A program made the position numbers and the translations under genes. A stretch of DNA of 64,000 nucleotides from Pedobacter psychrophilus (GTDB lineage: Bacteria > Bacteroidota > Bacteroidia > Sphingobacteriales > Sphingobacteriaceae). The stretch is taken from the NCBI RefSeq assembly GCF_001652725.1, contig NZ_LWHJ01000022.1, forward strand, positions 558,001 through 622,000, read 5' to 3'. Position 1 is the first letter of the stretch. Each line of letters opens with the position of its first letter. Under the pieces are notes generated by a model. The model searched no databases. It was not told the origin of the DNA and was given only the letters and a program-made list of their open reading frames with translations. Below, piece after piece: positions 16,334 to 27,924 of the stretch.

Positions 16334-16666
16334 ATGAAAAAAGCAGAAATTAAATTGACCATTGAATTAGATGACAATAATGTTCCTGAAAATATTACTT
16401 GGGAATCAACAGATAATGAGAACAAAGAAGCAATTGCCGTAAAATCTATGATGTTGGCACTTTGGGACCATAACTTTAAAAATAGTTTGCGCATTGATTT
16501 ATGGACTAAAGATATGCCAGTAGATGAAATGAAGCGCTTTTTTTACGAAACATTGCAAACCATGGCCGATAGCTTTTTAAGAGCTACCGGAGAGACTAAT
16601 ATTGTAGAAGATTTAAGAGATTATTGCGCCCATTTTGCCGAGAAAATGGAAATTGAACAGAAATAA
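16334..16666 (+). CDS. gldC: Gliding motility protein GldC
   Basis: A 110-residue cytoplasmic protein starting MKKAEIKLTIELDDNNVPENITW, the standard GldC opening, with the typical RIDLWTKDMPVDEMKRFFYETL block. In Flavobacterium, gldC is linked to gliding motility and is found across Bacteroidota with and without gliding. It follows the small membrane protein gene after 43 nt. The RAYT unit begins about 30 nt downstream. Confidence 0.92.
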   Translation: MKKAEIKLTIELDDNNVPENITWESTDNENKEAIAVKSMMLALWDHNFKNSLRIDLWTKDMPVDEMKRFFYETLQTMADSFLRATGETNIVEDLRDYCAHFAEKMEIEQK

Positions 16667-16696: not shown

Positions 16697-16729
16697 AGAC
16701 TTACGAAGTTTTAAAAACTTCGTAAGTCT
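16697..16729. repeat. REP palindrome, left copy of the RAYT unit
   Basis: AGACTTACGAAGTTTT (16697-16712), a central A, and its perfect complement AAAACTTCGTAAGTCT (16714-16729): 16-bp arms, 33 nt in all. It is the exact reverse complement of the copy at 17269-17301, which has a central T. It lies 25 nt upstream of the transposase ATG. Confidence 0.9.
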
Positions 16730-16754
16730 GTTGTAAGGCAAAGATTAAATTTCA

Positions 16755-17297
16755 ATGAAATATTTTAACGATTGTTATTATCATATTTATAATAGAGGAA
16801 ATAATAAAGAGAATGTTTTTTTTGAGGAAGAGAATTATATTTATTTTTTAAATCAATTTAAAAAATATGTAACCCCATCTTTAGATGTTTTGGCTTATTG
16901 CTTAATGCCGAATCACTTTCATTTTTTTGTTAAAATTACTAATGAGCAATCGTTCGATAAGAACATCAAAAATTTTTTCATTTCATATTCTAAATCAATA
17001 AATAAGAAATACAATCGAGTAGGAAGCTTATTTCAAGGTAGGTTTAAAAGTAAAGAAATTGAAAAGGAATCTTATTATACACGGATTATAACTTACATTC
17101 ATCAAAATCCAATTGAAGCTTTTGGTATCGATAATTTACAGGATTATCGTTTTTCATCTTACACTGCATATTTATCAAACAACATTACATTATTTAAAAA
17201 AGAGGAAATGCTAAAATGGTTTGGTGGAATTGAAGGATTTAAAAATTCTCATAAAATAATAGAAGATAAGACTTACGAAGTTTTTAAAACTTCGTAA
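16755..17297 (+). CDS. REP-associated tyrosine transposase (RAYT, Y1/IS200-like family)
   Basis: A 180-residue HUH single-strand transposase. The start MKYFNDCYYHIYNRGNNKEN gives the beta-strand typical of Y1_Tnp proteins. The HUH metal motif is HFH in CLMPNHFHFFVK. The catalytic Tyr is probably in the FISYSKSINKKYNRVGSLFQ helix, followed by GRFKSKEI and YIHQNPIEA, both typical of RAYTs. These domesticated transposases cut and join DNA at REP palindromes. Here perfect 33-nt palindromes sit on each side. The C-terminus (KTYEVFKTS) and the stop codon are encoded inside the right palindrome. It lies between gldC and ccmB, so it was probably inserted there as a unit. Confidence 0.92.
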   Translation: MKYFNDCYYHIYNRGNNKENVFFEEENYIYFLNQFKKYVTPSLDVLAYCLMPNHFHFFVKITNEQSFDKNIKNFFISYSKSINKKYNRVGSLFQGRFKSKEIEKESYYTRIITYIHQNPIEAFGIDNLQDYRFSSYTAYLSNNITLFKKEEMLKWFGGIEGFKNSHKIIEDKTYEVFKTS

Positions 17298-17301
17298 GTC
17301 T
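17269..17301. repeat. REP palindrome, right copy, overlapping the RAYT 3' end
   Basis: AGACTTACGAAGTTTT, a central T, then AAAACTTCGTAAGTCT: perfect 16-bp arms. The TAA stop of the transposase lies inside the right arm, so coding and repeat sequence are shared. It is the exact reverse complement of the left copy. Confidence 0.9.
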
Positions 17302-17334
17302 GAAATTGGTTTTAAAAACTTTGTAAGTGCAAAT

Positions 17335-17994
17335 ATGAACCTCATCACTCAAATAAAATATCTCTTAAAAAAGGAAATCCTTTTAGAATGGCGCTCTAAA
17401 TATGCGCTGAATGGTATTTTATTGTATGTGGTTTCCACAGTTTTTGTTTGCTATTTATCCTTTAGAGTTGTACCTCCGTTAGTTTGGAACGCTCTTTTTT
17501 GGATAATTTTACTTTTTGCAGCAATTAACGCCATTGCAAAAAGTTTCATGCAAGAAAGTAAAGGGAGGTTATTATATTACTATCAAATTGCAAGTCCGCA
17601 AGCAATTATCATTGCAAAAATCATTTACAATATTTTATTGATGATTTTAATGGCAACCATTGCCTTAGTGTTTTATAGCGTAGTTTTTAAAAATAATATT
17701 GGCGATGTTTGGTTATATTATTTAGCAGTATTAATAGGCGCAATCAGCTTTTCTACAGTCTTTACAATGATATCTGCAATTGCTTCTAAAGCAAATAATA
17801 ACGGTACATTAATGGCTATATTAAGCTTTCCTGTTATTATCCCATTGTTGATGCTGATTATTAAATTATCAAAAAACGCAATGGACGGTTTAGACAGGTC
17901 GGTTTCTTTGAATGAAATTGGAGTATTATGTGCAATTAACGCTATTGTAATCGTTATTTCTTTATTACTATTTCCTTACCTTTGGCGAGATTAA
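17335..17994 (+). CDS. ccmB: Heme exporter subunit CcmB
   Basis: A 219-residue integral membrane protein with six hydrophobic segments, starting MNLITQIKYLLKKEILLEWRSKYA, typical for CcmB of Bacteroidota. With CcmA it forms the ABC part of the system I cytochrome c maturation pathway, which releases holo-CcmE from CcmC in the inner membrane. ccmC follows after 10 nt and ccmD overlaps that gene by one base. No ccmA or ccmE is in the window. It lies just after the RAYT unit, which may have separated it from its earlier upstream neighbour. Confidence 0.88.
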   Translation: MNLITQIKYLLKKEILLEWRSKYALNGILLYVVSTVFVCYLSFRVVPPLVWNALFWIILLFAAINAIAKSFMQESKGRLLYYYQIASPQAIIIAKIIYNILLMILMATIALVFYSVVFKNNIGDVWLYYLAVLIGAISFSTVFTMISAIASKANNNGTLMAILSFPVIIPLLMLIIKLSKNAMDGLDRSVSLNEIGVLCAINAIVIVISLLLFPYLWRD

Positions 17995-27891: not shown

Positions 27892-27924
27892 ATACTTACG
27901 ATTTTTTTAAAACTTCGTAAGTCT
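27892..27924. repeat. Solo REP palindrome (RAYT family)
   Basis: It is 33 nt long like the copies flanking the RAYT gene, with the right arm AAAACTTCGTAAGTCT intact and three mismatches in the left half (ATACTTACGATTTTTT). It lies upstream of the glutaryl-CoA dehydrogenase gene, more than 10 kb from the transposase gene. This shows the palindrome is dispersed independently of the gene. Confidence 0.85.

Follow-up and report, generated by a model that had tools for sequence, protein, structure and literature searches.

What kind of genetic element is a short transposase-like gene that stands, with a palindrome at either end, between two host genes of Pedobacter psychrophilus (assembly GCF_001652725.1)? 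We analyzed the surrounding stretch of 64,000 nucleotides (contig NZ_LWHJ01000022.1, positions 558,001 to 622,000, hereafter the window). The left flank of the gene is gldC (16334..16666, + strand; Pfam and NCBIfam, GldC profile score 163.7 bits against a cut-off of 102), and its right flank is a ccmB-like gene (17335..17994, + strand), which scores 47.1 bits with Pfam CcmB (cut-off 24.9) and 24.1 bits with NCBIfam ccmB, below the cut-off of 156.2. The predicted location between gldC and the ccm genes is thus borne out.

Direct reading of the sequence places a 33-nt palindrome with 16-bp arms, AGACTTACGAAGTTTT-A-AAAACTTCGTAAGTCT, at 16697..16729, and a second one at 17269..17301, also with 16-bp arms and identical to the first except for a central T; neither is assigned to a strand, and both are supported by DNA folding. 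The gene between them (16755..17297, + strand) encodes a RAYT/TnpA-REP-like HUH Y1 protein of 180 aa, as assigned from Pfam, NCBIfam, an alignment and an AlphaFold model. Its NHFH motif and its match to Y1_Tnp, together with the sequence as read, confirm the original prediction of an HFH-type tyrosine HUH gene between two perfect 33-nt palindromes with 16-bp arms. The gene had also been described as exactly enclosed. Palindromes do stand at both ends, the left one stopping 25 bp upstream of the start codon, but the last eight codons (TYEVFKTS) and the stop codon (17295-17297) occupy 17271-17297, within the right palindrome. A Pedobacter relative (L074) has a nearly identical C-terminal end (...TYEVLKTS). 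Similarly, the two palindromes had been called mirror images, and their centres do differ as A versus T; however, for an odd-centred palindrome, two reverse complements that differ in the centre are simply one palindrome read from either strand, and the relation is incidental. As a functional sign it was rejected: among 13 relatives with both copies, the centres were A/T in two, the same base in six and A/G in five. Directly downstream of the right palindrome lies a degenerate extra half, ACTTACAAAGTTTT (17315..17328, - strand, one mismatch), and a third copy of the palindrome is found in the window at 27894..27922 (no strand assigned; 29-nt core, two mismatches), with divergent genes on either side by crude ORF calls (L186).

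The window RAYT scores 43 bits with Pfam Y1_Tnp (cut-off 23) and 60.2 bits with NCBIfam NF047646 (REP_Tyr_transpos), below the curated cut-off of 80. Its motifs are NHFH, FQ and YIHQNP, and residues H54, H56 and Y114 are invariant in all 20 aligned sequences. The best PDB match of its AlphaFold model (mean pLDDT 82.9) is 4er8, a RAYT bound to a REP hairpin (E 9e-8), with which the modelled protein would share fold and catalytic residues at 14% identity in the structural alignment; IS200, IS608 and ISDra2 transposases match the model less well (1e-4 and worse). A sequence search of solved structures returned alkanal monooxygenase (E 0.0034), a match that we judged to be due to chance, and 4er8 (0.094), and a PHROGs search returned one unnamed family (3e-4). 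What broadly marks a RAYT or TnpA-REP is present here: an HUH motif and a catalytic Tyr in a predicted Y1 fold, and flanking palindromes that recur in the genome.

Among described groups, TnpA-Y1 subclass 2.6, which takes in RAYT group 5, consists mostly of Bacteroidetes proteins with a median length of 179 aa and the Y motif YIH[QN]NP; atypical structures that recur in the genome flank its members, whose GTAG-reading region is not conserved (PMC6006769, 2018). The window RAYT is alike in length, phylum, Y motif (YIHQNP) and flanks, but it has NHFH and FQ where NH[LIV]H and WQ are listed, one of the three key motifs being exact (PMC6006769). By its sequence it appears most like this subclass. 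Such units, which had been thought little described in the phylum, are accordingly known in Bacteroidetes, in general terms, from the text of that paper. TIRYTs likewise place a Y1 protein between inverted repeats, but their repeats carry GGGGWSAS motifs (PMC3733652, 2013), of which direct reading finds none in the window palindromes; 20 of 26 TIRYTs belong to subclass 2.1 (PMC6006769). By the criteria of Nunvar 2010, RAYTs were found only in gammaproteobacteria (PMC2817692), and RepRanger counts REP-like sequences in Bacteroidota including Flavobacterium, with RAYT absent from its main text (PMC12306157).

We next considered the palindromes themselves. Folded as single-stranded DNA, each reaches -14.1 kcal/mol, which none of 200 shuffles equalled. 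Each half of the 33-mer is in turn a small inverted repeat with a 3-nt loop (e.g. AAACTT-ACG-AAGTTT or AAACCT-CAT-AGGTTT), and the left palindrome is parsed as 15 + 3 + 15, with a mini-REP at 16697-16711, a spacer at 16712-16714 and an inverted mini-REP at 16715-16729. This two-level symmetry was measured on 52 RAYT-flanking palindromes from other loci, the window's own being outside the set. In nine clusters, which were represented by one palindrome each and may share ancestry, the inner Watson-Crick pairs averaged 4.67 of 6, against 1.61 when the arm was shuffled and the long palindrome kept, and none of 2000 shuffled sets reached the observed value. Palindromes entered the set if they had an odd centre and 13 or more of the 15 arm pairs, and eight duplicate loci as well as L037, L039, L040, L041, L046 and L131 (fragments or poor matches) were omitted. 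The inner symmetry was not clear in the clusters L049 and L084 (3 and 2 pairs).

In the own genome (3,999,136 bases, 33 contigs), 21 palindrome sites were found with at most three mismatches over the 29-nt core, with none in the control, and one further site with a one-base-longer centre brings the total to 22. By crude ORF calls (at least 60 aa), eight of them lie between convergent, 12 between tandem and two between divergent genes. None is wholly within a gene, the right-hand copy overlapping the end of the RAYT gene itself, and none of the 20 sites outside the RAYT unit falls inside a crude ORF, compared with 3642 of 4000 random 33-bp positions around them. These results agree with the predicted dispersal and intergenic bias, and the absence of further copies that would have told against it did not occur. 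Since the flanks share no sequence by eye beyond the 33 nt, the 33-mer itself is the dispersed unit. Exact halves are balanced (17 forward, 19 reverse). Across 21 sites, changes matched on both sides number 5 and one-sided changes 20; the innermost pair accounts for many of the one-sided ones, and covariation is seen at the second outer pair (AG..CT or AA..TT). The GT[AG]G foot of classical REPs occurs at one of the 42 edges of 21 sites (L189 left out) and a G directly outside the 33-mer at none of the 42, the latter being an observation made after the fact in a single genome.

A dispersed entity of two inverted REP units, with copies, inner symmetry and balanced halves, is thus present in the own genome. 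For REPINs, Bertels and Rainey (2011) proposed two states, of which the two-hairpin 'clover' is recognised and the long hairpin probably is not (PMC3116915). In view of this proposal and of the inner symmetry of the halves, the 33-mer is best read as a collapsed REPIN, that is, two inverted 15-nt mini-REPs 3 nt apart, rather than as one REP. An isolated half folds at only -0.9 kcal/mol, against the value above for the long hairpin, and given these energies the two-hairpin state of the window 33-mer would be transient. With Pseudomonas REPINs the element has in common two inverted repeats, a proposed one-hairpin or clover fold, a place between genes and a tie to a RAYT; it differs in its length of 33 nt, its 3-nt spacer, its halves lacking a GTAG-type foot, and the longer spacer used in related genomes (PMC3116915). 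The E. coli REP, unlike the 33-mer, carries GTAG and a bulged stem (PMC8266576).

Relatives of the window RAYT were then compared. A protein search of 60 genomes, the own included, gave a match in 18; among same-genus genomes 8 of 17 had one, the best near-full-length match being 46% and shorter segments reaching 54%. A scan of one genome per species yielded 81 relatives, and 80 loci were retained. Those with the highest identity (25 loci, L054-L078, 54-67%) come from Mucilaginibacter, Pedobacter, Daejeonella and two MAGs labelled only Bacteroidetes. One protein, glutamate dehydrogenase, stands at 76-79% to Mucilaginibacter, Pedobacter and Daejeonella and at 31-42% to three other families; across own family and genus relatives (G001, G018-G021, G029, G031) the range is 70-82%. 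Judged by this single protein, the window and those three genera belong to one family, Sphingobacteriaceae. For the tree, synteny and flank counts 24 of the 25 were used (L059 is the same protein as L057), and for palindrome and spaced-pair searches 23 (L059 and L065 left out). The core palindrome stands beside the RAYT at 14 of 24 loci and on both sides at 13, with no right-hand copy adjoining the gene at L073.

Among the 23 genomes with a 54-67% relative, the 13 with a RAYT-flanking palindrome hold 17-107 copies, while the remaining 10 have no contiguous copy genome-wide. Around the RAYT of these 10, however, the same halves, ACTTACGAAGTT and AACTTCGTAAGT, or variants of them, occur with a spacer between (8 of 10 by eye), and exact spaced pairs number 1-5 in each of eight genomes, with none in any control. 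The apparently palindrome-free relatives were therefore rejected as a refutation of the pairing between gene and palindrome. The two Daejeonella genomes have no exact spaced pairs, but an AATTT variant is seen by eye. The 10-nt cores are separated by 19-27 nt, variable in sequence, in the eight spaced-form genomes and by 7 nt in the 33-mer. Exact spaced pairs were also found in 3 of the 13 collapsed-form genomes (8, 2 and 1), several of them being a 33-mer with an extra half, and there were none in the own genome. In the spaced-form genomes G070 (4 forward, 2 reverse) and G081 (5 and 8), most exact halves are listed without an exact partner nearby, and the pairs there are thus worn or looser. 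In Mucilaginibacter dorajii (G074), exact halves are 78 forward and 78 reverse, as expected for inverted pairs, at least 5 of the 100 halves listed lacking an exact partner; the 20 sites examined there were chosen by exact core match, so their perfect pairing is selected. One of these 20 lies inside a crude ORF, as does none of 14 sites in G001. The RAYT tree, in which many forks are weak, implies at least two changes between the collapsed and the spaced form.

At lower identity, many RAYTs within the same genus and class have different palindromes, about 33 nt long, on their flanks, and for some the search found none. At one distant RAYT (L085, 2387-2453 and 3094-3148) three or four mini-units, namely AACCCGCGAGGTTT and its reverse complement, are arrayed in the flanks, where they build longer hairpins. 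In one Pedobacter relative (L068, 2501-2881) the RAYT frame ends at 126 aa, with a stop soon after the catalytic Tyr, while close relatives are longer. In M. dorajii many 33-mers (L202-L221) lie within a longer shared repeat, whose outer portions resemble GGTGGGAATGACAAAGCGACGA and GGGATCTACAACATGTCATGGGT; this gives the impression of a palindrome embedded in a different repeat family.

From these results we consider it likely that the locus is a REP/RAYT system of a Bacteroidota type, with a RAYT that was probably domesticated, judging from sequence comparisons, 33-nt palindromes at the gene ends that would be its cognate substrate, and dispersed copies that would form a small population of the same element, a collapsed REPIN. 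The predicted compact REP/RAYT unit is upheld by the RAYT-type HUH protein and its palindromes, and is refined from a single REP to a REPIN.

The gene and both palindromes might instead move together as a 605-bp autonomous IS200-like insertion sequence, with the solitary palindromes as footprints, and the history of the site bears on this alternative. GldC is present in 12 of 12 same-genus genomes examined, and in G001, G010 and G012 the stretch read also contains ccmB, at distances of 52, 216 and 22 bp, respectively; in the other nine, ccmB was not found in the stretch read beyond gldC. The three junctions contain neither a RAYT nor a palindrome copy, and therefore the unit at this position is private to the own genome among those compared. 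This supports the predicted unshared insertion site, and conservation of the unit at this site throughout the family, which would have weighed against the prediction, is not seen. The G010 junction (L146) holds an unrelated repeat-like sequence, TGTCATTCTGAGCGGAG..., so this junction may be a spot that tolerates inserts.

The absence of the unit from three congeners fits an insertion sequence, as does the finding that no close relative of the gene occurs in the same-genus genomes (distant ones in 8 of 17, at best 46% near full length). The window RAYT also has the HUH/Y1 catalytic core in common with IS200/IS605 insertion sequences. Unlike these, however, it has a single match in its own genome, although several gene-bearing copies are not required of every insertion sequence, and its ends are symmetrical. 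Moreover, the positions of the relatives are fixed within clades: of 25 RAYT loci compared (the window and 24 relatives), 20 fall into three syntenic groups, one of 10 behind a gene of 454-456 aa in Mucilaginibacter and the two MAGs, one of 7 in Pedobacter between genes of 641 and 386-394 aa, and one of 3 in Pedobacter between genes of 400 and 702-703 aa. Outside these groups are L055, L056, L072, L076 and the window RAYT, whose site is unique. The relatives are under purifying selection (dN/dS 0.03-0.13 in six related pairs, of which three have dS > 2; window versus L074 is saturated), and the structure that best matches the predicted fold belongs to a RAYT, not to an IS200 transposase. We therefore regard an IS200-like element as unlikely.

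The palindrome sites have a history of their own. Eight own-genome sites were queried in eight congeners, and all but L009 were aligned. The L002 site is shared with G012, as a worn orthologous palindrome, and the L008 site with G010, with inner changes, though not with G012 or G007; given these orthologous copies, the palindromes of the own genome are in part older. Only one of the eight sites, L184, looks empty in a congener (G012). At L003, L011, L012 and L015 no palindrome was present in the aligned relatives, where the intergenic DNA was too different to place the joint. With poor intergenic alignments, the seven aligned sites yielded no exact insertion junction or target rule.

Palindromes also occur in genomes without a close RAYT. 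Sites with at most three mismatches were found in 6 of 59 related genomes (G001 16, G031 15, G029 5, G010 3, G006 2, G043 1); there was no match to the window RAYT in G001, G029, G031 and G010, and only distant relatives in G006 and G043. Matches to Y1_Tnp number 4, 7, 10, 1 and 2 in G001, G029, G031, G010 and G006, respectively, all of them distant. Therefore, the palindromes can outlive the RAYT gene or be served by another enzyme. Among the 14 of 16 G001 sites that were fetched, 14 two-sided and 12 one-sided changes were counted, and loci L137, L142 and L190-L201 of this genome show matched arm changes at the loop base (ACTTACG, ACTTGCG, ACTTCCG), with no close RAYT. The G001 palindromes either form an orphan population or depend on a different enzyme. 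The own genome has eight Y1_Tnp genes including the window RAYT, and since the other seven are distant from it, another of its enzymes could serve the palindromes there as well. One of these genes (locus L021, C31:213939-217205) is bracketed by two copies of another long palindrome, AAAAGCTCAGAATTT... (at 967-1001 and 2143-2178), with copies of a third repeat, GTTCGACATG..., inside, and is possibly a second RAYT-like unit.

That G001, G029 and G031 have palindromes but not this gene would also fit a host that kept them as transcription-end or RNA-stability hairpins, the RAYT gene having merely landed among them. The intergenic placement and the gene orientations (8 convergent, 12 tandem, 2 divergent by the crude ORF calls) are in keeping with such a use, and the right palindrome scores terminator-like on the minus strand, but the left one does not in the same scan. 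However, of 23 related genomes, 13 have the palindrome beside the gene, and the other 10 lack it throughout. Host use and a RAYT origin are also compatible, so this alternative denies only the pairing, and in that form we find it quite improbable. It is hardly credible that the 33-mer, instead of being a single-strand substrate, is bound in double-stranded form by a dimeric regulator, e.g. in RAYT autoregulation. It does have near-perfect two-fold symmetry at both levels, with one copy 25 bp before the start codon and the other at the gene's end, but those proteins of this fold that have been studied act on hairpins of single-stranded DNA (PMC8266576), and a rigid dimer site would not allow the spaced form, with 19-27 nt between its 10-nt cores.

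For the REP/RAYT system, a mechanism can be drawn by analogy with studied RAYTs (PMC8266576; PMC8049555), for which single-strand recognition, a Tyr nick, strand transfer and rare copying are described; the only biochemical comparison of RAYTs that we found covers groups 2 and 3 rather than this branch (PMC8266576). When a site becomes single-stranded, e.g. on the lagging-strand template, the palindrome would fold, the RAYT would recognise a folded half by its stem and loop and nick it via Tyr114, and a 33-nt copy would rarely be pasted into another single-stranded intergenic site. Since the 33-mer is its own reverse complement except at the centre, either strand would serve, and its near-complete symmetry suggests that both strands may be substrates.

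In the article passages covered by our literature search, we found no account of the palindrome or of its two-level symmetry for this family. Within that scope, the parsing as 15+3+15 appears to be new, as do the occurrence of one half-site in a collapsed and a spaced form and the near-exclusive way in which these two forms are distributed among genomes, although the 15+3+15 plan may already be drawn in Fig. 7 of PMC6006769.

We tentatively propose, as a possibility that we hold to be less than even, that the 33-mer is a minimal, strand-neutral REPIN in which each strand has one correctly oriented REP, so that the RAYT could use it on either replication arm, and that long-spacer and collapsed REPINs are alternative states between which related RAYTs have switched. 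If this is true, spacer length would, besides stem sequence, be a specificity trait of the enzyme. The 25 related enzymes, of which most share one half-site laid out in collapsed or spaced form, together with relatives that have quite different palindromes, form a panel that can serve to find what a RAYT reads, whether stem, loop or spacing, and that also bears on the question why bacteria retain RAYTs for so long.
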